A DNA stretch of 36,775 nucleotides from a virus: IMG/VR virus record IMGVR_UViG_3300023184_000302, positions 1-36,775 of that record; one strand, 5' to 3'. The notes under the pieces are model-generated. The model was not told the DNA's origin and ran no database searches. It saw only the letters and a list, made by a program, of their open reading frames with translations. This document shows positions 13,935 to 35,654 of this stretch, piece by piece. The position numbers and the translations under genes were made by a program. Positions within the stretch are counted from its first letter, which is position 1; each line of letters begins with the position of its first letter.

Positions 13935-16900
13935 ATGCTTACCCTTGACGACCCACTTGAGAAAGAGAGTTCTGAAGACGATAAACCGACTGCCTTGATC
14001 CCCCCTTCTTGGGATGATGTTGAGGCTGATGAAGAATACCAATCTTTAGATAATAGATACAAGCGGGAGACGTTGTCTAATTGGGCGAAGCTAACGCGAG
14101 ATTATGCCGCTAATACTGGGCAAGTGGATTCCCTTAAAGATGTGGAAGAGTTTGTCAAGTTTAAGGATTCGGAGTTAGCCCCAAGTACCATGGAGGGAAT
14201 TGTGAACTCTGGTAAAAATGCTTGGGACTCTTCCACTCAGGCGCTGCTTGCTACAACTCGTGTAGATGACGCTGCTGCTCAACGGATATCCGAACTTGAG
14301 CGTGATAAGAAGGCACGGCAAATATCCCCAGATTACGAAGCGTACCAAAAAGCAGAGGGGTGGAACGCTGTTGGAGAATTTTTATCTAATCCTATTGAGA
14401 TAACCACAAACATAGTGGGAGAAGGGCTTGCAGGTAGTGTGCCTGCATTAGCGGCGGGAGCTGGAACTGGTCTTGCGGCGGGAGCTGTTGGGTCAATTGC
14501 GGGTCCTGCTGGTTCGGCTGTAGGCTATACAGCTGGACAAGTTGCAGGAACTTTTGCTGGGTCGCTCGCTACGGAATATGGAAGCAAAGTTTTAGATGAG
14601 CTGCAAAAAGCTGGGATGGATATGTCTAACCCAGATAGCATTAAGAGTTATTTTTCAGATGAGGAGAAACTATCTCCGATACGCAAAAAAGCATTGATTC
14701 GAGGGGTCCCCGTTGCTGCTTTTGATGCAATTTCCGCTGGCATAGCAGGAAAACTTGGGAGGGTATTTGGTAGCGGAATATTAAAAGAGGGCGAAAAAGT
14801 TATTGGCAAAAAATTTGCCACCAAAACAGGAGAAGCCTTAACTGAAATGGGAGCCCAAGGGCTTGCTGGCGGATTAGGTGAAATTGCTGGTACTGTAGCT
14901 GCTGGTGATGACATATCTTGGAAAGATGTATTTGCTGAAGTAGTAGGTGAGTTTGGGCCTGGCTCGCTTAAAGTAGCTCAAAGCAAACTTCGTGATAGCT
15001 TTGCTGGTAGGGCTGTTAAACGTGCAGCTACTAACGCTGAAAACAATAATGCGCCTGCCACGGCAAATGCTTTACGAGAGAAATTTGACAGAGACGTAGC
15101 CCAATTTGCCAGAGACGTAGCTCAATCGCAATCTGATGCGTCCACAAATGCAAACGATATTTTGGATGACATGGAGGGTAATGATACCGACACTGACGAA
15201 TCTGGAAAGTCGGGTGTAATATCTGAAGCACAAGCCAACAAGCCCACAAATGTTGAAAACCCTGTAACCCTGCAACCCCTTAACGGAAAAGCCCCAGTAC
15301 AAAATGAACTCACGTTAAATGGTAAGCCATTAGCAGATACTTCGGATACCGAGCTGCAAGCATTCGGAGAAGGCCTTAAAACTAACTACGACAAGCTTAG
15401 CCCTGAGGATAAAACGGCAACCGATAATACACTTAAACAAGTTGCCGACGAACAGGCTCGCAGGGTTGCAGGGTTGCAGCCCCAGCCTAAAACGGTGGCT
15501 CAGATCCCTCCCCCACCAGACCCCATTTTCACAAAGGATACCACTATTGAAGAGGTATCTAGGGAACTTGAGTCCCGTAAATCACTACTTCAAACAACTG
15601 ACTTTGGTGAAGCTGGCAATGCTAAGCTGCAAGATTCAGTTAATAAACTTGAAGTATTACAGGGGGCATTGGGGACTCCTGCAGTCGCAGAAGCTGCAAC
15701 ACCCTCCCCCACTATTTTACCGCAGGATGGACAAGTGGCTAAGTCGGGAGGCTCATATCCTCCAGTCGCGGGTTCGACTCCCGCTCCTGCAACCACTGTC
15801 GAAGATAATGCGGCTGGTCTAGTTACTCCAGAGGTTGTGCCTGTAGCCGAGACTCCCGCTCCTGCAACCACTGTCGAAGATAGTGCTACCGGTCCAGTTA
15901 CTCCAGCGATTCCTGAGACCCCTACCCCAGTTACCCCAGCGGTTCCTGAGAACCCTACCCCAGTTATCCCAGCGGTAGAACCAGCTCCTGCGGTAGCCGC
16001 CACAGCGGTATCTACTGAAAATACTATCGAAACACCACCTGATATTGCTGTGCCGCAAGACGCCACACCTATCGGACCTGAAGCAACAGGACCCCTGGAC
16101 ATGATCAGCCAGGAGGTGGTTTCCTCTTCCAATGAAGCAAACGACGCCATTGCAAAGTTGCGTCAAATGCCAGCGGAGGAAGTTGAATCAGCAGACCCAG
16201 AATCTCTGCTAGCCGATAAGCCAGCCTCGTCGGTGCTTGCCTTGTTTAAGGGGCTCGGTAGCACCGTTGAGGCCCAGCCAGTAGAACAAAATGAATCATT
16301 CGGTGATTACCTTGAGCGCACTGGAACTTCGATCTACGATTTTGATACTCGCCCCACAGTTTATGACGAAGCTAGTAGGGTGTACGTGCCGCAGGGTGCG
16401 GACCCTTTTGAGTCTATTAAAGAACTCGCTACTGGGAAAAAAGAACTTGCTGATATTGCTGCACCTCCCGCGCAGGAATCCGTTCCGACGATTACAAAAG
16501 AGGAGGCCGCACGTCAGCAAAAGGCTAAAGAGACAGAAGATTTTTACGCTGACAATAAAAAAGATGCTGCTGTAGATACTGAGCCTACTAATACACAAGC
16601 CCCTATAGAAACCGAGAATCTGGAGGTTAAATTTGCGGGGGCAAAGGGGGTAATTAGCAAGAAAGCGTTGCCAGTTGTTGAGGCCCCTACGGGCGAGCTG
16701 GATTCTGACGGTAAGCCGATTACTAAAGTGGCCCCAGGGTTTGTAAATGACGCTGATGTTTTAGCTGAGGTACTTAATACCACTAAGGGCGCTGATCGAG
16801 TATACATACCGAAAAGCGAGTTAGAGAACATCGACCATGATAATATCGGTGTTGCGTATGAAAAAGATACTGGCAGAGCGTACGTTACCTTTGCCCGACA

Positions 16901-19900
16901 CAGTAGATATACTGGGGCCCCCATTCTGGCTAGCGGGTTGACAGAGGATGGAGCTTCGCTTGCTGATTTATACCAGAATGATGATGGGCGCAAGCGTAAC
17001 AGCGAGGCGCAAACAAAGGGTAAGAAAGCAAAAAACAAAGCGAAGAAGGCAGGTGTTTCTGTCGATGAAGTAGTAATTCCCGCGATGCAGCCTGCATATG
17101 CTGAAAAAGTATATGAGGCTCCAGAGTCTAAGTTTGAAATTGAAAACCCAGAGCGAGTCAAAAAAGACATTGCGAAGATCAATGAAAAGGCAAAGCTGCT
17201 AGCTTCTGAGACGGTCACTACAGAAGACGGGCAGCTTATTACAATAGGTGCTGAACTAGCTGACAGGATAGCTGGAGCAGCTGTTGTTACTTACTTTGCT
17301 AGGCACCGAGGGCTGGATAAAGGAAAGTTTAAAGACCCGACGGGTGTAATATCAGACATTAAAAAGAAGGTCATACCTTACTTAAAGAAGCGCCCTGGGA
17401 CTGGCGCTGGTTTTTCTTTGGATCAGACAGTGGCGGATACGGGAACTACAATGGGGGATCTTGTTGCAGATTCTAATGCTGTCGACCCTACCGCTGAAGC
17501 TAATGAAACAGAGCAGGCCGACACACAGGCTTCTTTGGACTCTGAAGAAACTCCAACACCTGAAAATAGCGTACAGCCTGAGGTCAACAAGGAGACAGGG
17601 AAACAGGGCGACATGCTTGAAACGGCCATGTCTGAGGTTGAGGCTGAACTTCTAGAGTTTAACGCAGCTGATTACAATATTTGGAAGAGCACTGAGCAGA
17701 TGATCCGTGAAGGCAAAGATGTAAAATCTCTTACGCCGTCGAGAAAACGAGTCGTTGATTTTGTTAAGACCCGACTTCGTGAAAAGTTGCAGCAGTCTGT
17801 GGCTACGGAACGTTGGGTAAAAACGGAAGAAGCTACTTCTAGTCTGAGTGCAGATTCCACGCAAGCGAGGGATTTCGATAAGGAGGCTTTGGAAGCTACA
17901 GTTACGCGCAATCTTGATAAAATTATCGAGCTTAATGGTGGGCCAAAGACTGGCGGGTTTAACGTGAGGGATATGCTCAGGAACATTGCAGCAGACCTTA
18001 AAACTCCGCAGCTAGTCAGGGTGTTTGCCAATTACCTAGCAAACTCAAAGCACGATTTTTCGGGAGTTAAATTTGAGGTAAACCGAGACTCTAAAAACAA
18101 TAAAAACTGGGCTGGGTTATACACGGCAGGAACTAAATCCAACGAGGGTAAGATACAGATAAATGCAGCAAGTCTGCATAGGGGCGGTGTTGGGACTACG
18201 ATTGTCCATGAGGCTCTACACCACATTGTATTGTATAAGCTTCGCCCAGGATATGCCAGGGAGGGAGTTGAGGTAACTGCTTTTAGAGACCTTAACAAGA
18301 TTCTCACTCATATCCGCAAGCAAGTTCTTGCTCCACAAAAAGGTGAATCACTAAGTACGGCAGCGCGGAAGCAAATATCTAACGATGACACGTTTTATGG
18401 TCTGTCGAACGTGGATGAATTATTTACCGAGACGCTTACTAATACAAGGTTTGCGGCGTGGCTTCAGTCTCAGGAAGCAATTCCAGGGCTTACTCCTAAA
18501 AATACGGGTGTATTCAGGTCACTTTACGAGCAGGTAAAACAAATATTTAAAAATCTCATCGGGGCTACCAATGTAAGGCCTGATAGCATCTTGAGCCAAG
18601 CTATGGATAATATCATGGCGTTGGCAGAGACTCCGCAAAGCGATGCTAAAATCGGAGAATGGCGAGATGGCAGAGCAAATGGGCGGAACTTGTCTGCGGA
18701 GGCTAAGGCTAAAATGGTAGAACCAGACTTTGACGGGTTCCCAAATGGCATGGTAGACCCTGATATTGGGGATCTAAATCTTCCAGAGGGGCCTGGGTGG
18801 TTAAGCTCAACAAATGATTTTATACCAGTAGAGGAGTCTACATCTGTTGGAGAACGGGGGCTTACTATAGGGGGGCACGATCAAGCTGCTTTAGAATGGC
18901 TAGAAAAAAACAAGCCAGCTACATTTAAAAAACTATATAAGCAGAGTCAGGGCGATTTAAAGTCTTTAAACGGAGACGATATTAGTAACGCTATGGAGGG
19001 CCACGGTTTTCTTAGACTTACAGGAGACTCGTCTAAACTCTACTTTACTGGTAAGCCGTCTTCAAAGCAAATTGGGTATCTAAAAGATATGGGTATGCTT
19101 TTGGATATTGAAGTAGTGCATGATATGGGAACCCGCTCTAGGACTATATTTAATCCTTCAGCCCTTATGTCAGCTAGCGCTGGGGTAGACACACAAGTTT
19201 TTGCAGAGCAAGTGTCACGTGCGGATGCGCTAGTTAGAGACTCTTTTTCTTCGCCAAATATAGAGCTACGCCAGGAAGTGGATACTGCTGGCCATCCAGC
19301 TTGGGCTATGATCGATGGAGGGAATCTTGTAATAGGATATGACCCTAACTGGGTTGCAGCAGAGATCGATGGGCTAAACGACGCCGACGCTAAGGCTCTT
19401 ATCACTAAGATGCTTAAACATGAGGAGCTTCATATTGCGGCTCTTGCAAATGATTTGGCTGACCCCGATAGTGAAGGCCGAGTTGGTGAGGAGAAGGCTA
19501 TTGCCTTTCACGATGAGGTTATGACACCTCAGCAAAGGCGCGAGACAGCTGAACGTTATGTGCGCGTATTTGAGGGCCAAACCGAAGAGCAGTACCAGCA
19601 AACTATAGATGACTTCCTTGAGAAGAAGTATAATGTTGTGGGCGAGTTTAAGCGTATGTTTGCGGAGCGGTATTTGACTGGTAAAACATATGAGGATTTG
19701 CACATTGAGCTATCCACTAAGAGCGATAACAAGCTAGTTAGAGTTTTGCAGGAAGTCTCGAACTACATTCAGGCTAAGGTGCGTTTGATTAACGCACGGC
19801 TTCAGGTAGCATTTGATCCTAAATTAGCAGCAGAGCTTAGCGAGAATCTAGCTTACATGGATATTTTGTCTAGGGTCCCAGGGATTGCTCCTAGCGCTGC

Positions 19901-22853
19901 GGAAAGTATGGGAGCGGACGCTAATTCAGCTACAGCATTGTACGCTAGCCGAGCCCAGCGTCGTAAGATGATTGAAGAATCTGCTGGCTGGAAGGTCAGT
20001 GGACCGTTTGGGCAAGGGCTGATGGATATGAGGGTTCATAACCAGATTGCCCGAAAGGACGCTCAGATACGTGGAGCGGCATTTAGGGTGTCTGAAACTG
20101 CTAAGAAATTTGAGCGACTTGTTTCTAAGCATAAACCCGCCCAACAAAATTTACAGGATGCGCTTGGCACAACTGACAACACGTTGACCGAAGCTCAAGA
20201 CAAACAAGTAAAAGCCTTACAAAGAAAAGTGCGAGCAGAGACCGACCCAGTACTTCGTCAAGTGGCTATTGCTAATACTGACGCTTATAGGTTGAAGGAG
20301 ATAAAGGCTAACAATAAAACGCGTGAGGCCGTTAGACGGGCAGCGTTAGCAAGCCTTCCCCAAGAACTAGCGGATGTAGTAACGGATATGCGCTCACAAA
20401 TTGACGCGCTATCTAACGAGCTAGTATCTAAAGGCATGGTGAGCGATAACCTTAAGGCTACAATAGGGGCCAACTTGGGCCTTTATTTGAATAGGTCGTA
20501 TGAAATCTTTGATAACCGCGAGTGGGCTGATCATATCTCTAAGGATACGTCAGCGGAGTCAGTAAAAATTAGGAATGATGCGCTTAAGATATTCAGGGCT
20601 CAACTGGAAGCTACTGAAGCGGCTAGGATTCGCAGGGCGGCAAAAGAGGCTGGCCTTCCAGTGCCGTCTAAGTCAGATGCGCTGCTAACTGCAAAATCTA
20701 CCGTCACTCAAAATGACGTAGATATTTTGATGAACGATTACCTTCGTGTTGGGGATGACAAATCGGTAGCTATGCTTGGTGGAGTTCTGCCAGGTAAAAA
20801 AGACGTATCTATCTTGAAGGTCAGGGGTCAAATACCAACGGAGATTCGGGCGCTTTGGGGGGAGTATAAAGCTCCTGAAGTTAGCTATGCTAAGACATAC
20901 ATAAACTTAGCTTCGTTTATTGCTAACCACTCTTTTCAACAGGAATTGCTGGATACTGGGCTTAACGGGGCTCAACCTTTCTTGTGGAAAGATGGGGTAA
21001 GCTCGGGTGCTCGTCCTGCTCACTGGGTTCCAGTTTTTCCAGAAGGAGCCAGCTCAAGCCCTAACCCTATGGGTGGGGTGTATGGGCCTGAAATTATTAA
21101 AGAGGCTTTCACTGAGCTATCTAAGACTTACAAGAAAAATATAGTACAGGAAGCGTTGTCTACTTTGACGGGCTTATCTATGGCCTCAAAGACGGTTTAC
21201 AATATGCCGCAATCTAACGTCAGGAACTTCCTGGGTAACGGACTGATAATTGCTGGAAATGGATACCTTACTACTGATTTGGTCAAGCTGGGGTTCTTTA
21301 AACGGCTGTCTGGTGCGGCTAATAATGTCGGACCTAACCTTGTGGGGCTGGCCCCAGAGCGGTCTGTTGCAGTTACAAGTTACGTTGAGCGTCTTATTAA
21401 GAACGGAGTTGTCAACGACAACGTCAAGGCGAACGTAGTTAAGGAATTGACGGCAGTTATTTTTGATAGGAACCCAAGCAAAGCTTTTGGGGGTGTAATA
21501 TCTAAAGCTAAGGATGTGGCCAAAGGTGTGAACGAGCGACTTGTAGGGGCCTACAGTGCTGGCGATGACTTTTGGAAGATAGTAGCGTTTGAGAGCGAGA
21601 GGTCTACAATGCAGAAAGCATTTCCGAGTGCAACTGAGGAATCGCTAGACCGGATGGCGGCTGAGAGAGTCAGGAAAGTGCTACCAACATATAGTCAGAT
21701 ACCTAAGGTTGTAAACGATCTATTCAAATCCCACCCATACTTTGCTCCATTTATCTCTTGGACGAGTGAGATCATCCGTACAAGCGCAAACACGGTTAAA
21801 GTTGGGTGGGCAGATGCTAGAAGCGGTAATCCTGCACTTCAGAAAAGCGGTATAATCAGGCTTGCATCTTTTGCTGCAGCGCAAGCGGCACTACCAGCCC
21901 TTGCTCTTGTTGCTAGAAACGCTATCGGTCTTGATGACGATGACGAAGAGGCGCTTCGTCGTTTTCTACCTTCGTGGCAAGTTGATGGGCTGCTTCTTAT
22001 GACGGGTAAGTTAGAGGATGGTAAGGCGAGCTTTTGGGACTTGAGCTACTTGAACCCATACAGCTCAATTCAAAATCCGTTTATTGTAGCGAAGCAGGAA
22101 CTTGACAACGGTGGCGGGGTTGGGGCTGCGGCTTGGGAGTTTGCTAAAAAGGTAGTAGAGCCTTGGACGGCAGAGCAGTTATTAGCGGGAGCAGTTATTA
22201 GCGCAATAAGAGGCGTAGATAAAAATGGGCGACCTGTATTTAACGAGGCTGACACTACATGGAACAAAACATTAGCGAGGGCTAGCTTGGTTGCTGATTC
22301 ACTATCCCCAGGAAGCTTTAACATTGGTTCCCGTATTTATAAAGCGGCTACAGGGCAGATGCGAGGAGATGGTAAGGTTTACGAGCTGCAAAACGAGGTT
22401 GTGGGGCCTTTAATTGGGCAGCGTATGTCTGAGATAGACTCACTGCAAAATTTTCAGCAGGGTAAAGTCCCACAGTATAAACACATGGCTTCGCAAGCTG
22501 CCTTACTGGCTACACAAGCGTACCGGTTTAGGGGCACTCCTGATTTACAGAAGATTAAAGATAACTACACGCAGTCTAATAATGCTCGCATGGAGGCAAT
22601 CAAATCTTTGCGGAAAGATTACCTGGCTTTGAAGACTCTTGGCGTACCTGAAGATAAGATTGTCCGAGCTTTAGCTGCAGCAAAAGTAGAAAAAGACGAT
22701 ATTGGGCAGGTGAAATCTGGTGTCTTTATAAAGAGCATCCCTAGTAAAGTAACTTTTGAAAATGCAGTTGGGCTACCTGAGTTTCCTAAAAGACTTCAAG
22801 CTTTGAAGGATGCAATAAATGAATACCCGAGTAGGCAATCGTTGGATGACTAG
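13935..22853 (+). CDS. 2972-residue polyvalent/internal virion protein with two zincin motifs
   Basis: Domains in order: a Gly/Ala-rich, membrane-compatible stretch at about 163-215; a Pro/Thr/Ala-rich linker at about 590-690; a basic segment near 1030-1160 ending GFSLDQTVADTG; a zincin-like domain with VHEALHH (His1425, Glu1426, His1429) and downstream NVDELFTET (Glu1495 or Glu1499 as possible third ligand); a second HExxH, KHEELH (His1829, Glu1830, His1833); long helices; and a C-terminal region, about 2400-2700, with SNVRNFLGN, FAPFISWTSEIIRT and a hydrophobic helix near 2645. This matches the 'polyvalent' proteins of phages and conjugative elements, which carry several effector domains and enter the cell with DNA; the C-terminus recalls the LPD38 domain. 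The peptidases could cleave host defence proteins. A complete tRNA-like sequence lies inside the reading frame at 15721-15795. Confidence 0.7.
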   Translation: MLTLDDPLEKESSEDDKPTALIPPSWDDVEADEEYQSLDNRYKRETLSNWAKLTRDYAANTGQVDSLKDVEEFVKFKDSELAPSTMEGIVNSGKNAWDSSTQALLATTRVDDAAAQRISELERDKKARQISPDYEAYQKAEGWNAVGEFLSNPIEITTNIVGEGLAGSVPALAAGAGTGLAAGAVGSIAGPAGSAVGYTAGQVAGTFAGSLATEYGSKVLDELQKAGMDMSNPDSIKSYFSDEEKLSPIRKKALIRGVPVAAFDAISAGIAGKLGRVFGSGILKEGEKVIGKKFATKTGEALTEMGAQGLAGGLGEIAGTVAAGDDISWKDVFAEVVGEFGPGSLKVAQSKLRDSFAGRAVKRAATNAENNNAPATANALREKFDRDVAQFARDVAQSQSDASTNANDILDDMEGNDTDTDESGKSGVISEAQANKPTNVENPVTLQPLNGKAPVQNELTLNGKPLADTSDTELQAFGEGLKTNYDKLSPEDKTATDNTLKQVADEQARRVAGLQPQPKTVAQIPPPPDPIFTKDTTIEEVSRELESRKSLLQTTDFGEAGNAKLQDSVNKLEVLQGALGTPAVAEAATPSPTILPQDGQVAKSGGSYPPVAGSTPAPATTVEDNAAGLVTPEVVPVAETPAPATTVEDSATGPVTPAIPETPTPVTPAVPENPTPVIPAVEPAPAVAATAVSTENTIETPPDIAVPQDATPIGPEATGPLDMISQEVVSSSNEANDAIAKLRQMPAEEVESADPESLLADKPASSVLALFKGLGSTVEAQPVEQNESFGDYLERTGTSIYDFDTRPTVYDEASRVYVPQGADPFESIKELATGKKELADIAAPPAQESVPTITKEEAARQQKAKETEDFYADNKKDAAVDTEPTNTQAPIETENLEVKFAGAKGVISKKALPVVEAPTGELDSDGKPITKVAPGFVNDADVLAEVLNTTKGADRVYIPKSELENIDHDNIGVAYEKDTGRAYVTFARHSRYTGAPILASGLTEDGASLADLYQNDDGRKRNSEAQTKGKKAKNKAKKAGVSVDEVVIPAMQPAYAEKVYEAPESKFEIENPERVKKDIAKINEKAKLLASETVTTEDGQLITIGAELADRIAGAAVVTYFARHRGLDKGKFKDPTGVISDIKKKVIPYLKKRPGTGAGFSLDQTVADTGTTMGDLVADSNAVDPTAEANETEQADTQASLDSEETPTPENSVQPEVNKETGKQGDMLETAMSEVEAELLEFNAADYNIWKSTEQMIREGKDVKSLTPSRKRVVDFVKTRLREKLQQSVATERWVKTEEATSSLSADSTQARDFDKEALEATVTRNLDKIIELNGGPKTGGFNVRDMLRNIAADLKTPQLVRVFANYLANSKHDFSGVKFEVNRDSKNNKNWAGLYTAGTKSNEGKIQINAASLHRGGVGTTIVHEALHHIVLYKLRPGYAREGVEVTAFRDLNKILTHIRKQVLAPQKGESLSTAARKQISNDDTFYGLSNVDELFTETLTNTRFAAWLQSQEAIPGLTPKNTGVFRSLYEQVKQIFKNLIGATNVRPDSILSQAMDNIMALAETPQSDAKIGEWRDGRANGRNLSAEAKAKMVEPDFDGFPNGMVDPDIGDLNLPEGPGWLSSTNDFIPVEESTSVGERGLTIGGHDQAALEWLEKNKPATFKKLYKQSQGDLKSLNGDDISNAMEGHGFLRLTGDSSKLYFTGKPSSKQIGYLKDMGMLLDIEVVHDMGTRSRTIFNPSALMSASAGVDTQVFAEQVSRADALVRDSFSSPNIELRQEVDTAGHPAWAMIDGGNLVIGYDPNWVAAEIDGLNDADAKALITKMLKHEELHIAALANDLADPDSEGRVGEEKAIAFHDEVMTPQQRRETAERYVRVFEGQTEEQYQQTIDDFLEKKYNVVGEFKRMFAERYLTGKTYEDLHIELSTKSDNKLVRVLQEVSNYIQAKVRLINARLQVAFDPKLAAELSENLAYMDILSRVPGIAPSAAESMGADANSATALYASRAQRRKMIEESAGWKVSGPFGQGLMDMRVHNQIARKDAQIRGAAFRVSETAKKFERLVSKHKPAQQNLQDALGTTDNTLTEAQDKQVKALQRKVRAETDPVLRQVAIANTDAYRLKEIKANNKTREAVRRAALASLPQELADVVTDMRSQIDALSNELVSKGMVSDNLKATIGANLGLYLNRSYEIFDNREWADHISKDTSAESVKIRNDALKIFRAQLEATEAARIRRAAKEAGLPVPSKSDALLTAKSTVTQNDVDILMNDYLRVGDDKSVAMLGGVLPGKKDVSILKVRGQIPTEIRALWGEYKAPEVSYAKTYINLASFIANHSFQQELLDTGLNGAQPFLWKDGVSSGARPAHWVPVFPEGASSSPNPMGGVYGPEIIKEAFTELSKTYKKNIVQEALSTLTGLSMASKTVYNMPQSNVRNFLGNGLIIAGNGYLTTDLVKLGFFKRLSGAANNVGPNLVGLAPERSVAVTSYVERLIKNGVVNDNVKANVVKELTAVIFDRNPSKAFGGVISKAKDVAKGVNERLVGAYSAGDDFWKIVAFESERSTMQKAFPSATEESLDRMAAERVRKVLPTYSQIPKVVNDLFKSHPYFAPFISWTSEIIRTSANTVKVGWADARSGNPALQKSGIIRLASFAAAQAALPALALVARNAIGLDDDDEEALRRFLPSWQVDGLLLMTGKLEDGKASFWDLSYLNPYSSIQNPFIVAKQELDNGGGVGAAAWEFAKKVVEPWTAEQLLAGAVISAIRGVDKNGRPVFNEADTTWNKTLARASLVADSLSPGSFNIGSRIYKAATGQMRGDGKVYELQNEVVGPLIGQRMSEIDSLQNFQQGKVPQYKHMASQAALLATQAYRFRGTPDLQKIKDNYTQSNNARMEAIKSLRKDYLALKTLGVPEDKIVRALAAAKVEKDDIGQVKSGVFIKSIPSKVTFENAVGLPEFPKRLQALKDAINEYPSRQSLDD
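15721..15795 (+). tRNA. Initiator-type tRNA-Met (CAT) nested in the giant gene
   Basis: The 75-nt sequence folds as a full cloverleaf. The acceptor is CGCAGGA/TCCTGCA, with six pairs and a C1-A72 mismatch. T8 is followed by a D-stem GAC/GTC with a loop containing GG. The anticodon stem is GGAGG/CCTCC and the loop CTCATAT, anticodon CAT at 15754-15756. The variable loop is 4 nt, the T-arm is GCGGG-TTCGACT-CCCGC, then discriminator A and encoded CCA. The C1-A72 mismatch, G2-C71, C3-G70 and A11-U24 pairs and G30-C40, G31-C39 are initiator tRNA hallmarks; the third anticodon-stem pair is A29-U41 rather than G-C. It is on the sense strand of the giant gene, which reads through it as about residues 596-621. 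Processing from that mRNA, or from an unseen promoter, would be needed. Confidence 0.85.
15776..15925 (+). repeat. Two 75-nt tandem units copying the tRNA 3' end
   Basis: A segment starting GACTCCCGCTCCTGCAACCA at 15776 recurs at 15851, exactly 75 nt (25 codons) later. About 32 nt are identical, followed by diverged but related sequence. Both encode TPAPATTVED. The first copy contains the tRNA T-loop end, acceptor strand and CCA; the second copy carries those bases without a tRNA body upstream. Further degenerate Pro/Thr units continue to about 15980. Confidence 0.8.
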
Positions 22854-23554: not shown

Positions 23555-23769
23555 GAGACTACAAAAAGGAATATAAAGAGTACCAAGGAACCCCGCAGCA
23601 ATTAAAGCGTAGGGCTTCTAGGAACGCAGCTCGCCGTAGGTTACTAGCGCAGGGAAGAGTTAACAAAGGCGACGGTAAAGACGTTGATCACAAAGACAGT
23701 AACCCGATGAACAATAGCAAGGGAAACTTGCATGTAATGAGCGCATCGGCAAATAGGTCAAAGAAGTAG
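23551..23769 (+). CDS. Small HNH-like DNA-binding protein
   Basis: The 72-residue product reads DYKKEYKEYQGTPQQ, RRASRNAARRRLLAQGRV and then GDGKDVDHKDSNPMNNSKGNL. This is a conserved phage type: a basic helix followed by an HNH-like segment (DVDHKD...NxxNL) that lacks the zinc-binding CxxC pairs. Some relatives are annotated as HNH nucleases, others as hypothetical. It is the last + strand gene before the switch to the - strand, and its TAG directly abuts the stop of the convergent neighbour. Confidence 0.65.
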   Translation: MRDYKKEYKEYQGTPQQLKRRASRNAARRRLLAQGRVNKGDGKDVDHKDSNPMNNSKGNLHVMSASANRSKK

Positions 23770-23798
23770 CTATAGCTTTAGGGCTAGGTTTTTTAGCC
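23768..23798. terminator. Convergent gene junction with dyad and hairpin
   Basis: The 10-nt palindrome AGCTATAGCT (23768-23777) spans the point where a + strand and a - strand stop codon meet. It is followed by GGCTA-7 nt-TAGCC (23782-23798), a 5-bp hairpin with a T-rich loop in the + strand. The hairpin is weak and has no T-run after it, so it is only a candidate bidirectional terminator. Confidence 0.3.
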
Positions 23799-24048
23799 AT
23801 TCAGGGCTATCTTTAGTTACGTTTAGGCCCCACTTTTCTACGGATAAACTGAAAGGTACTGCTTCAGTTGGATTGGTTCTTTTCTTGTAGATACGTTTTC
23901 GTTTGGAGTGGTAAGGCCAATTGTCTATGAGGTCTTCTTTAGTGAACGTGACGATGCCGCACTCACATGCGCGTCTCCTGTACGTTACTCCATCTAACCT
24001 TCGGCTATCTGTTACTGAGGTTTTTTGTTGGCAACTGGTGCAAATCAT
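23770..24048 (-). CDS. NrdR-like zinc-ribbon protein lacking the ATP-cone
   Basis: The 92-residue product opens MICTSCQQKTSVTDSRR, then RRRACECGIVTFTKEDL. The pattern CxxC...D-S-R...RRR-x-CxCG...F is that of the N-terminal zinc ribbon of the NrdR repressor, which binds DNA upstream of ribonucleotide reductase genes. Real NrdR continues with an ATP-cone domain; here a short basic tail (YHSKRKRIYKKRTNP) and about 35 further residues follow instead. It could bind similar DNA sites without nucleotide control. It is the most downstream gene of the - strand block. Confidence 0.6.
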   Translation of the reverse strand: MICTSCQQKTSVTDSRRLDGVTYRRRACECGIVTFTKEDLIDNWPYHSKRKRIYKKRTNPTEAVPFSLSVEKWGLNVTKDSPEWLKNLALKL

Positions 24049-24049
24049 A

Positions 24050-24262
24050 TTAATGCATGCCTAAGATTTTTTTTAAGTGCTCTAACCCGCTTTTGTCGGA
24101 GTTTGCTGGGTCTTCTTCAAGTTCGCCATCGTAGAAAGCGGTATCCCATGTTACATCAAACAGTTTTCTAAGACCCCTCGCGGTCATAGTTACGTTACCT
24201 TCTTTACTGTCGAATGAAGGGTTGCGTTTTGAGTAAATTTTCCATAGCTCTTGTTTTGTCAT
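24050..24262 (-). CDS. Small conserved phage protein, unknown function
   Basis: The 70-residue product (MTKQELWKIYSKRNPSF, then NVTMTARGLRKLFDVTWDTA) resembles short proteins seen in many phage early regions, but I know no function for them. It is soluble, with a helix at each end. It ends 1 nt before the NrdR-like gene starts, so the two are in one operon. The 84-nt gap upstream holds a long hairpin. Confidence 0.5.
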   Translation of the reverse strand: MTKQELWKIYSKRNPSFDSKEGNVTMTARGLRKLFDVTWDTAFYDGELEEDPANSDKSGLEHLKKILGMH

Positions 24263-24283
24263 AAATCTGTATACAAATTGGGG

Positions 24284-24330
24284 ACTGCCACAGCCTACTA
24301 TTTGGGATGATGATAGTAAGCTGCGGCAGT
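24284..24330 (-). promoter_or_regulatory. Long hairpin in the leader of the 24262 gene
   Basis: Arms ACTGCC, CAGC and TACTAT pair with ATAGTA, GCTG and GGCAGT around an 11-nt loop. Two positions between the blocks are A-C in the + strand but G-U and U-G in the - strand RNA, so only the - strand transcript forms an unbroken 18-bp stem. It lies between two - strand genes. It has no following T-run on that strand, so it looks more like an RNA processing, stability or attenuation element than an intrinsic terminator. Confidence 0.65.
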
Positions 24331-24346
24331 TTTGCGGGGAATGGGT

Positions 24347-24685
24347 TTAAACTGGTTTCAAGGTTTCTTCGTTAAACCCAAAAGAGTTAACGACTTTCTT
24401 CATAGCTTTAAGCTCAAGTTCTTCGAGGTTAAGTATGAGGGCCATTTTTTCTTTAGGCTTGACCAGGACAATTAGAATATCTTCATTTTCGTCGCTGTTA
24501 AATATATGGGAAGAGGGCGTCTCATTCATTGAGGCCGACACGGTTTCCATAATTCTGTTGATGTCATCTGAGTCTCCAGGGTCCCCACTTAGGGCCCTGT
24601 TGACTATATCGCTTATCAAGCCTAAGTCGGATTTAGCTCGAACCATTGGGGTGAGCCCCAGTTCGTAGTTGCTTTCTGTGTCCAT
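24347..24685 (-). CDS. Acidic protein of unknown function
   Basis: The 112-residue product is acidic in its first half (SGDPGDSDDINRIMETVSA) and has a beta-helix end (DILIVLVKPKEKMALILNLEELELKAMKKV). No membrane segment or motif is visible. It is preceded by a 54-nt gap with a TATAAT-like box 44 nt before its ATG and followed by the long hairpin, so it may be a short transcription unit of its own. Confidence 0.5.
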   Translation of the reverse strand: MDTESNYELGLTPMVRAKSDLGLISDIVNRALSGDPGDSDDINRIMETVSASMNETPSSHIFNSDENEDILIVLVKPKEKMALILNLEELELKAMKKVVNSFGFNEETLKPV

Positions 24686-24728
24686 TTTGATGTGTTAAAT
24701 AACGAGCATAATATTTGTAACGTCAACT

Positions 24729-24740
24729 GATATTATACCC
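24729..24740 (-). promoter_or_regulatory. GGGTATAATATC element (candidate -10) before the 24685 gene
   Basis: The - strand reads GGGTATAATATC, a perfect TATAAT hexamer in a context repeated at four other gene boundaries. No -35 consensus is evident 17 nt upstream. It begins at the stop codon of the upstream small gene. Confidence 0.45.
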
Positions 24741-24877
24741 TAAAAGGATATAGATTTTTTGGTTGAGGTTAGGTGAATGGTATCTGGTAGCACGTACTCT
24801 ACATAACATTTCTTTTTCTGATAGGTTATGTAGACATATAGTGCTGTTGCTACTGCAACTGATATTAGTACTTTCAT
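24740..24877 (-). CDS. 45-residue membrane protein
   Basis: Start ATG is at 24877-24875, overlapping the upstream stop (ATGA); the TAG is at 24742-24740. The product begins with a membrane helix (VLISVAVATALYVYITY) and continues QKKKCYVEYVLPDTIHL. This is a single-pass protein with a short basic cytoplasmic-like tail. The overlap with the preceding gene supports that it is translated. I cannot assign a function. Confidence 0.5.
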   Translation of the reverse strand: MKVLISVAVATALYVYITYQKKKCYVEYVLPDTIHLTSTKKSISF

Positions 24878-25053
24878 TGTAATGTTTTACCTTTTGATGG
24901 GTGTTGTTTAATTTCAGCTGCTACGGCACGACGCACCGCAGCATCGATACGCAATATAAAGTCAGCTCCAACGCGTTCAAACGCATGGAAAGGACGCAGG
25001 GATTTGGCCATTTGTAGTGTGTATTCCTTGACTGCTTTTTTGTTTAGTAACAT
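24874..25053 (-). CDS. Small basic helical protein, histone-like in style
   Basis: The 59-residue product is LNKKAVKEYTLQMAKSL, then FERVGADFILRIDAAVRRAV and a conserved-looking end, EIKQHPSKGKTL. A strand or helix followed by 'V(S/G)xxFxxRxxAAVRxxxxxEIxxHPSxGKT' is a pattern I associate with small phage and bacterial proteins of histone-fold appearance, but without a search this is a guess. It is not a long-enough protein for enzymatic function and is probably nucleic-acid binding. Confidence 0.5.
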   Translation of the reverse strand: MLLNKKAVKEYTLQMAKSLRPFHAFERVGADFILRIDAAVRRAVAAEIKQHPSKGKTLQ

Positions 25054-25067
25054 TTTAGTAGTTTAGG

Positions 25068-25211
25068 TTAAGTGTGGTTTGAACTATCGTTCATATAATT
25101 ATGCGTTTCCAATAAGTCCCATACTTTGTCTAAACATTCTCCATCGGTTTCTATTTCTCCATCTCTCTCGATGATACGAATGATTTCCTGAATGATTTCT
25201 TTGTCGTTCAT
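25068..25211 (-). CDS. 47-residue acidic protein
   Basis: It runs from ATG 25211-25209 to TAA 25070-25068, 1 nt after the upstream gene stops. The product (MNDKEIIQEIIRIIERDGEI, then CLDKVWDLLETHNYMN) is helical and acidic. Its place in a chain of near-touching genes supports it. Unrecognised. Confidence 0.45.
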   Translation of the reverse strand: MNDKEIIQEIIRIIERDGEIETDGECLDKVWDLLETHNYMNDSSNHT

Positions 25212-28518: not shown

Positions 28519-28956
28519 TTATTCTTTCCCTTCCAATAGCGAGACGGTACTTGCATCGCAGTCAGTTTCAGTTCGCTCATAATAATATGAAGTCACCTCC
28601 ATATTTAGAGTAGTTAAGTCTATTTTAAGCACCCCTCCCCCGCCCTCATTGTTGACCCAATCGCACGTTACATGCGCCTGAATTAACTTAAACACCACTT
28701 CGTCGCCAGAATCCCAATCGCTAGCACGAAGGGCATCGTTTTCTTCTGCTGTCGAGGGTTCAATATCTACGTCATCGATATCACCGCTATCTCCAGAGCC
28801 CGAAAAAGAGATCTCTACATCTGTCGCATTGGGGCAATGGGTTACTATTTTAGTAAGCCACTCTGCAAGTTTTGGGTTGGTTCCCATTATCTTAAGTTCA
28901 ATTAACTTTGCGACTGCTTTGTTGGCTTTGGTTGGTTTTTTGGTTTTGGCTTTCAT
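28519..28956 (-). CDS. DUF6878-like acidic protein
   Basis: The 145-residue product has a basic start (MKAKTKKPTKANKAVAKL), then VEISFSGSGDSGDIDDVDIE and, later, CDWVNNEGGGGVLKIDL. The 'FxGSGDSGxI' and 'WxNNxGGxG' elements are those of the DUF6878-type family in phages and plasmids; no activity is known. The leader carries ACAGAAA 8 nt before the ATG. It overlaps the preceding gene by 4 nt. In this block it lies near the ATPase/VWA module, as related families often do. Confidence 0.6.
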   Translation of the reverse strand: MKAKTKKPTKANKAVAKLIELKIMGTNPKLAEWLTKIVTHCPNATDVEISFSGSGDSGDIDDVDIEPSTAEENDALRASDWDSGDEVVFKLIQAHVTCDWVNNEGGGGVLKIDLTTLNMEVTSYYYERTETDCDASTVSLLEGKE

Positions 28957-29147
28957 GGTTGTATTTTCTGTATTGCTGCTTTTAGGGATTTAATTACCTG
29001 CATGGTTGGCTTGATGGTCAACTCATGCCCGTATGTCAGGCATGAGTGATCCACGTTTTCTAATTCTAGCTCTAACAAAGCTTGCTTTGAGGACTTTAGT
29101 AAGGTTTCAAAGGCTTTGCGGTTTACAGTTATTGAGTTGGCTTTCAT
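28953..29147 (-). CDS. 64-residue helical protein, unknown function
   Basis: The product reads MKANSITVNRKAFETLLKSS, then ALLELELENVDHSCLTYGHE and IKPTMQVIKSLKAAIQKIQP. It has two amphipathic helices around a short loop. ACAGAAA lies 5 nt before the ATG, and a GGGTATAATATT element starts 19 nt before it. A 9-bp inverted repeat occurs within the coding region at 29021-29047. No family recognised. Confidence 0.45.
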   Translation of the reverse strand: MKANSITVNRKAFETLLKSSKQALLELELENVDHSCLTYGHELTIKPTMQVIKSLKAAIQKIQP

Positions 29148-30022
29148 GCTGCTTTCTGTTGCGGGAATATTATACCCATTGAGGATAGAATATCGCCTGC
29201 TGTCTTGTGGGCCGTCTTGCGAACCGTATCGTCTGCACGAATCTGATCGGGCTCAAGATCAGCAACTTTCTCAGCTTCCCCTACTAGACGGAGCAGGGTC
29301 TCATCCCCCGTAACATTGAGCTTTGGAATCTGTTTGCACAGATCACGAAGGTTAGTGATAAGGGTGTTACGGAAGATTTTATCCCCGTCATCAAGTCGCT
29401 CGGTCACGCGGGTTAGGGCGTCCCCTAGCCTTTCATATAGGGAGTCGTTAGCAACTTTCATGGATTCCGACAGGCTGGTGTCAATATCGTTCCCGATTTG
29501 GGAACGCACATCTTCTGGCAAGTCAACTCGGAAGTCGGCGCTATCTGGTAGCGGGAACCACGAGACACGCACTGCGAACTTAGAGCGAACCACTTCGACT
29601 GGTGGGTAGTCGCTCTCGTTAAACAGCCCGTTGAGAGCTGTTTTAGCTTTTACTCGGTGCGCGTCGTAGTTCACTAGGAACTCACCTACTGCGGTATCGA
29701 ACTCGGATCGGCCAGCACGTTCATCCTTTGCAAAGTCCTCCCATGAAGCGGAAGGGAGGATACGAATCCCATCATCCCGCCACGGTAAGGTGTGCCTGTA
29801 GAATATCGCTCTGAGCACCCCTTCTGCTTTCTTTACTCTGTCGATTGATCCATCTGGCAGAAGGTTTTTTACGAATGCTCCAGCGTCCTTGCTGGCCCCA
29901 TGTTTGATGAGGGTTTCAAGGGTAGCGATGCGGTCTGTCTTCTTAGGATTCCACACGCTGATGTTGAGTGTGGCTAGCATTGCGCATGAGCGCAGGTCTT
30001 TTGTTTGTGTTAGTGTTGTCAT
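29144..30022 (-). CDS. DUF3150-like protein of the MoxR/VWA module
   Basis: The 292-residue product contains LATLNISVWNPKKTDRIATLE, SWEDFAKDERAGRSEFDTAV and a long helical C-terminal half with SESMKVANDSLYERLGDAL. 'L..L.I..W...K.D......' followed by a region rich in helices and 'FVxNYxxxRxxA' is typical of DUF3150 proteins. In phages these recur beside a MoxR-type AAA+ ATPase and a VWA protein, both found just upstream here. Its role is unknown; a substrate adaptor for the ATPase is a reasonable inference. The AC-rich leader (ACACACAACAAACCAA) has no Shine-Dalgarno sequence. It overlaps the next gene by 4 nt. Confidence 0.6.
   Translation of the reverse strand: MTTLTQTKDLRSCAMLATLNISVWNPKKTDRIATLETLIKHGASKDAGAFVKNLLPDGSIDRVKKAEGVLRAIFYRHTLPWRDDGIRILPSASWEDFAKDERAGRSEFDTAVGEFLVNYDAHRVKAKTALNGLFNESDYPPVEVVRSKFAVRVSWFPLPDSADFRVDLPEDVRSQIGNDIDTSLSESMKVANDSLYERLGDALTRVTERLDDGDKIFRNTLITNLRDLCKQIPKLNVTGDETLLRLVGEAEKVADLEPDQIRADDTVRKTAHKTAGDILSSMGIIFPQQKAA
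29166..29177 (-). promoter_or_regulatory. GGGTATAATATT element (candidate -10) before the 29147 gene
   Basis: The - strand reads GGGTATAATATT inside the last codons of the 292-residue gene, 19 nt before the next ATG. It matches the element at 24729 in 11 of 12 positions. No -35 box is evident. Confidence 0.35.
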
Positions 30023-33320: not shown

Positions 33321-33332
33321 GATATGATACCC
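33321..33332 (-). promoter_or_regulatory. GGGTATCATATC element (candidate -10) before the ATPase gene
   Basis: The - strand reads GGGTATCATATC, directly after the stop of the upstream gene and 45 nt before the ATPase start. It differs from the element at 24729 by one base. No -35 consensus is visible. Confidence 0.4.
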
Positions 33333-34086: not shown

Positions 34087-34098
34087 GATGTTATACCC
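34087..34098 (-). promoter_or_regulatory. GGGTATAACATC element (candidate -10) before the 34023 gene
   Basis: The - strand reads GGGTATAACATC in an 81-nt intergenic gap, a one-base variant of the GGGTATAATATC element. The gap downstream is rich in AACAAAC repeats and has no other structure. Confidence 0.4.
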
Positions 34099-35459: not shown

Positions 35460-35654
35460 TCAGATATTATACCTTTTGTTTAATTCTCTGGGTTGTTCTA
35501 CTAACTGGATATCGAGTCCGAGGTTACGCAGGGCTTTCAGGTGTCTGGGTAACAGGGTTGTAGTTCCTGTGAGTAGTTTTAGGTCTGCGATATTGTCGAG
35601 GGGATATAGTTTTTCCTCTCCGTAGACGTTTTTCATGTGGCAACGTATTTTCAT
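35460..35654 (-). CDS. Small conserved phage protein, unknown function
   Basis: From ATG 35654 the product is MKIRCHMKNVYGEEKLYPLD, then NIADLKLLTGTTTLLPRHLK and ALRNLGLDIQLVEQP. 'YPxxxxAxxxxxLTGTxTLxxxxLxxLxxLGxxIxxV' is a compact helical pattern common in phage genomes, without known function. GGGGGAG lies 9 nt before this ATG, the best Shine-Dalgarno match in the - strand block. TTG 35672 is an in-frame but unlikely alternative. Confidence 0.55.
   Translation of the reverse strand: MKIRCHMKNVYGEEKLYPLDNIADLKLLTGTTTLLPRHLKALRNLGLDIQLVEQPRELNKRYNI
35463..35474 (-). promoter_or_regulatory. AGGTATAATATC element (candidate -10) before the 35406 gene
   Basis: The - strand reads AGGTATAATATC, overlapping the last codons of the upstream small gene and 57 nt before the next ATG. 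It shares 11 of 12 bases with the element at 24729 and contains a perfect TATAAT. Confidence 0.4.

Follow-up and report, generated by a model that had tools for sequence, protein, structure and literature searches.

Locus and Gene Block

The window examined in this study (the whole stretch of viral DNA that was analysed, 36,775 bases) contains a block of minus-strand genes running from 34434 to 23770, in which one intergenic gap is mostly occupied by a hairpin. The features at this locus are given below in the order in which the minus strand is read, with the plus-strand form of the stem beside the minus-strand one.

24729..24740, minus strand: GGGTATAATATC, a promoter-like motif that precedes the 112-aa gene; candidate transcript source
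24347..24685, minus strand: upstream gene, 112 aa; 32% identical homologue in contigs L044/L051
24263..24346, minus strand: intergenic gap, 84 nt, which holds the hairpin; longest of the 24 junctions in the minus-strand block
24284..24330, minus strand: stem-loop of 18 bp with two interior G-U pairs and an 11-nt loop, from pairing and fold
24313..24330, minus strand: 5' arm of the RNA stem
24302..24312, minus strand: 11-nt loop
24284..24301, minus strand: 3' arm of the RNA stem
24281..24333, plus strand: extended stem, with three extra G-U pairs (24281-24283 with 24331-24333) absent from minus-strand RNA
24050..24262, minus strand: downstream gene, 70 aa; homologues in 42 viral contigs
23770..24048, minus strand: 92-aa gene that ends the block; weak match to an NrdR-type zinc ribbon, under the Pfam cut-off

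The minus-strand block is compact, with 19 of its 24 junctions at 19 nt or less and only five at 48 nt or more; the other long gaps include one of 54 nt and one of 48 nt. As homologues fix the ends of both flanking genes, the 84-nt gap is truly intergenic, and the hairpin lies between co-directional genes, inside the gap between those at 24685-24347 and 24262-24050, where the preliminary description had placed it. A single frame runs from the stop codon of the 112-aa gene through the gap and along the 70-aa gene, and apart from that TAA it is open as far as the 70-aa gene's own stop (24050-24347, minus strand). Read-through of this TAA into the 70-aa gene was considered and rejected, since a shared frame would arise in about 9% of cases by chance (our own estimate) and in none of the 41 relatives that could be tested is the 70-aa gene fused to the frame before it, which it overlaps in every case.

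The motif GGGTATMAYATC is present in three of the five long gaps, one copy overlapping the preceding stop codon, a count that is partly circular as the motif was derived from these same gaps. It was found neither in the 48-nt gap nor in the hairpin gap, where the best match is mismatched at 5 of 12 positions. Minus-strand sites lie at 24729-24740, 33321-33332 and 34087-34098, and also at 29166-29177 and 35463-35474, before minus-strand genes. With up to 2 mismatches allowed, the two strands of the window together have 20 matches, compared with 7.3 expected, and a related phage (contig L051) has 5 matches to a shortened motif at up to 1 mismatch, compared with 0.74 expected. With no candidate promoter between them, the hairpin and the 112-aa gene are probably carried on one transcript. 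Judged by eye, few of the 22 minus-strand starts inspected have a Shine-Dalgarno-like sequence and none was seen at the start of the 70-aa gene, the region of which is about half unpaired.

Some apparent gaps of the minus strand contain small reading frames, at 24740-24877 (45 aa), 25068-25211 (47 aa) and 28953-29147 (64 aa), and by eye the 45-aa and 64-aa frames look like small frames similarly placed in contigs L044/L051. A family of hairpins in the minus-strand block was rejected, as the candidate members at 24798-24834 and 29019-29049 fall inside the 45-aa and 64-aa frames, respectively.

Structure and Stability of the Hairpin

The minus-strand RNA from 24330 to 24284 forms 18 contiguous pairs closing an 11-nt loop, with a minimum free energy (MFE) of -29.1 kcal/mol; relative to shuffled versions of the 66 nt folded, z is -8.7. 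The pairing probability of the 5' arm is 0.98, and the fold is very stable and isolated. Pairing and energy thus both bear out the 18-bp hairpin first reported from inspection of the letters. The plus-strand RNA folds at -26.3 kcal/mol, nearly matching the minus strand, so that a stable stem-loop of the kind seen in intrinsic terminators is present on both strands. In a survey of stems with at least 10 pairs, at most 1 mismatch and a loop of 3-14, this was the most stable short hairpin of the 36,775-base window (-28.4 vs. -23.5 for the runner-up). It is also the only uninterrupted 18-pair stem in the window, the plus-strand maximum being 13 pairs.

None of 2000 dinucleotide shuffles of the 84-nt gap gave a stem of more than 12 pairs, and the real gap (MFE -30.7) beat 2000 of 2000 shuffles, the lowest of which reached -21.8; the hairpin is therefore unexpected at its site. 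When stem length alone is considered across the window, the hairpin is less extreme than in this local test. Stems of 18 pairs occurred at a mean of 0.025 per shuffled strand (40 shuffles, both strands), giving a whole-window expectation of about 0.05, or about one in every twenty windows of this size.

Strand Asymmetry of the Stem

The preliminary description held that G-U pairs occur only in the minus-strand RNA, the direction of the local genes, and that this asymmetry suggests selection on the RNA. At the two interior positions the pattern is as claimed, with G24324-U24290 and U24319-G24295 pairing in the minus strand and A·C mismatches in the plus strand. The restriction to one strand does not hold, however, as GGG at 24281-24283 faces TTT at 24331-24333, giving three G-U pairs in the plus strand only. 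Whenever a perfect palindrome acquires a transition, one strand gains a G-U pair and the other an A·C mismatch, and the probability that two wobble-type changes both favour the named strand is 0.25. When two random substitutions were placed in a perfect palindrome, both gave minus-strand G-U pairs in 3-11% of the simulated cases, according to how frequent transitions were made. The asymmetry is two-way and weak, because a 25% chance outcome is combined with three outer G-U pairs specific to plus-strand RNA, and the case for RNA-level selection is weaker than was previously held.

Relatives of the Flanking Genes

Only one phage was found with a homologue of the 112-aa gene, represented by the near-identical contigs L044/L050/L051. 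A single-sequence search with this gene returned no relatives, and a profile search returned only two contigs, which count as one phage because the 20,855 bases compared between them agree at 99.99%. The homologous protein in L044/L051 shares 32% identity over 106 aa. In the related phage this gene overlaps the next frame by four bases, leaving no gap, and the next gene is a different one; no comparable hairpin was found at that junction in L044/L050/L051.

Relatives of the 70-aa protein are more numerous, 42 viral contigs having one with an identity of 51-63%, but they are not independent, several having identical upstream sequence. Upstream sequence could be examined in 41 of them, L043 being left out with 2 bases upstream, and for L042, which matches from residue 5 only, the distance is approximate. 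In 41 of 41 the 70-aa gene shares 2-8 bases with the frame before it, and the best stem within 200 nt before it has 6-8 pairs in 38 relatives, 10 in one and 12 in two, so that none of the 41 has a comparable stem. Of the loci retrieved, just one has a match to a second protein among the 24 from the window that were compared, and there too the gene overlaps the upstream frame. The 70-aa protein had no Pfam and no PHROG match. For the 92-aa gene no relative was found in viral contigs; a weak match in the related phage lies far from the homologous place. The A1 protein had no relative in genome contigs. At the DNA level, phage records gave no match to 23700-25100, and the gap itself gave only short matches with E values of 3 or more.

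As the relatives of both flanking genes have neither gap nor hairpin, the junction has so far been met in this phage alone, and the hairpin accompanies neither flanking gene elsewhere. Covariation would be a mark of an RNA under selection, and a homologous hairpin was found in no relative.

Further copies were also sought beyond these loci. A REP-like element would be expected in several copies, but with up to 3 mismatches allowed the window holds a single one. In viral contigs the arm pattern turned up three times, in no case with a comparable hairpin, and these hits were taken as chance. A 15-base match to the 5' arm in L050 was likewise attributed to chance, as it lies in a coding gene without an unusual fold (z -0.41) or a convincing homologue in the window. 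Three Rfam matches near the hairpin were all far below gathering scores.

Possible Function

The hairpin is real, well placed and of an ordinary kind. We tentatively favour reading it as an intercistronic stem-loop of the minus-strand mRNA, without a U-tract, that may stabilise or define mRNA ends at a gene-cassette boundary. From the comparison of relatives, this boundary would lie between a gene common to the related phage and a two-gene segment that is not found at that place there. Transcripts would start upstream, possibly at the motif at 24740, and extend through the 112-aa gene and on to those of 70 and 92 aa. The hairpin could then block 3'-to-5' exonucleases arriving from downstream, and/or it may be cut by a double-strand ribonuclease or adjoin an endonuclease cut. 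The messages upstream and downstream of it would, as a result, differ in stability.

This role in decay or processing is preferred because of the stable and isolated fold, the position in the longest gap between genes whose ends homologues fix, the lack of a minus-strand U-tract, the promoter-like motif that lies before the 112-aa gene and not in the gap, and the likeness to known hairpins. The earlier proposal of an RNA element between two genes, other than a terminator, accordingly fits in position, strength and lack of a U-tract, whilst the strand asymmetry does not suffice as an argument for selection at the RNA level. Against this reading, no relative has the hairpin, and the plus-strand RNA folds almost as well. 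It also counts against it that many RNase III sites of phage T7 have irregular stems, unlike the perfect 18-bp stem seen here.

Where genes share a transcript, strong hairpins between them are described as halting 3'-to-5' decay or adjoining endonuclease cuts, leading to unequal stability, and intercistronic stem-loops that terminate mRNA decay in puf, papBA and other operons are described or cited in the same account (PMC5927463). The present hairpin resembles the puf and papBA stem-loops in being strong, lacking a U-tract and lying between two co-directional genes, but differential decay or cleavage was measured in those systems, according to that account (PMC5927463), whereas here either would be a prediction. 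Phage T7 is reported to have ten RNase III sites, six of them in the same gap as a promoter (PMC9135205). Those sites, as presented there (PMC9135205), are likewise intergenic double-stranded stems between co-directional phage genes, but the hairpin here is a single copy in a gap without the promoter motif, and its cleavage is putative. Bacterial 3' ends with a stabilising hairpin and no U-tract are also described as arising by Rho-dependent termination and trimming (PMC13289151). What the present element has in common with the ends in that description (PMC13289151) is a hairpin that lacks a U-tract and follows a gene, and the difference is that it comes from the letters of the genome and not from a mapped transcript end.

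A transcription stop or pause site ranks next after the decay or processing role, and is possible but unlikely. On the plus strand it would limit late transcripts running past 23769, and on the minus strand it would be a hairpin-only stop. The plus- and minus-strand blocks abut without a spacer (23769/23770), so a terminator must sit inside the opposite block, and the plus-strand RNA folds strongly with TTT after the stem (tail score 2.45). This T-run, however, is just three to four bases long and is consumed by the three extra G-U pairs, which brings the tail score to 0.02, and the hairpin lies about 515 bases past the end of the late gene. On the minus strand the tail is CCCCAATTTG, with a score of 0.14, in agreement with the earlier remark that no T-run follows the hairpin; with no U-tract next to the stem, the hairpin does not qualify as an intrinsic terminator on this strand. 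The terminator scan, which has a loop limit of 8, did not list the hairpin, the loop of which is 11. The strong GC-containing stem after a stop codon is like that of intrinsic terminators; the missing minus-strand U-tract, and plus-strand U residues (three to four) able to pair back, are not. Attenuation, which the preliminary description had also raised, is unsupported in the strict sense, as the hairpin lacks a U-tract and no alternative structure came to notice incidentally.

It is rather unlikely that the hairpin has no present function, being either a neutral relic or a small palindrome that came in as the segment of the 70-aa and 92-aa genes was acquired. The lineage-specific junction would suit such an origin, with the hairpin absent from L044/L050/L051 and from 41 of 41 testable relatives of the 70-aa gene, as would the two mismatches that one strand already carries. 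In so compact a block, though, an 84-nt spacer would be unlikely to persist if it were neutral and to keep all 18 RNA pairs of the coding strand intact, and the window holds neither a second copy nor, by eye, a flanking duplication.

A DNA-level inverted repeat, such as a protein-bound operator or a recombination or replication site whose RNA fold is incidental, is improbable. Near-perfect 18-bp arms about an 11-bp centre and a strong fold on both strands are what it would look like, but there is one copy in the window, the arm matches in viral contigs are without a comparable hairpin, and the gap has no promoter-like motif.

Quite improbable is that the hairpin is an insulating element, gained with or arising at a newly joined gene segment, which gives an independent, separately stabilised message in place of the tight overlap with an upstream gene that other phages have; if it were so, one added hairpin without a U-tract would be enough for phages to rewire operons. 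If confirmed, the favoured decay or processing role would add one to the known cases of punctuation by hairpins, here in a phage group about which little is known, and would illustrate on a small scale how an acquired gene is fitted into an existing operon, but even then it would open no new class of element.

Other Observations in the Window

At the gathering score, Rfam gave only a tRNA, elsewhere in the window. This full-length tRNA-Met-like sequence (15721-15795, plus strand) has a CAT anticodon, scores 55.8 bits and was also called by ARAGORN. It sits on the same strand within a 2972-aa reading frame (13935-22853), in a Pro/Ala-rich stretch; part of it gave 0 exact matches in genome contigs. 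One window protein has a 28.5% match to cyanobacterial phages, which offers a lead only as to the host.
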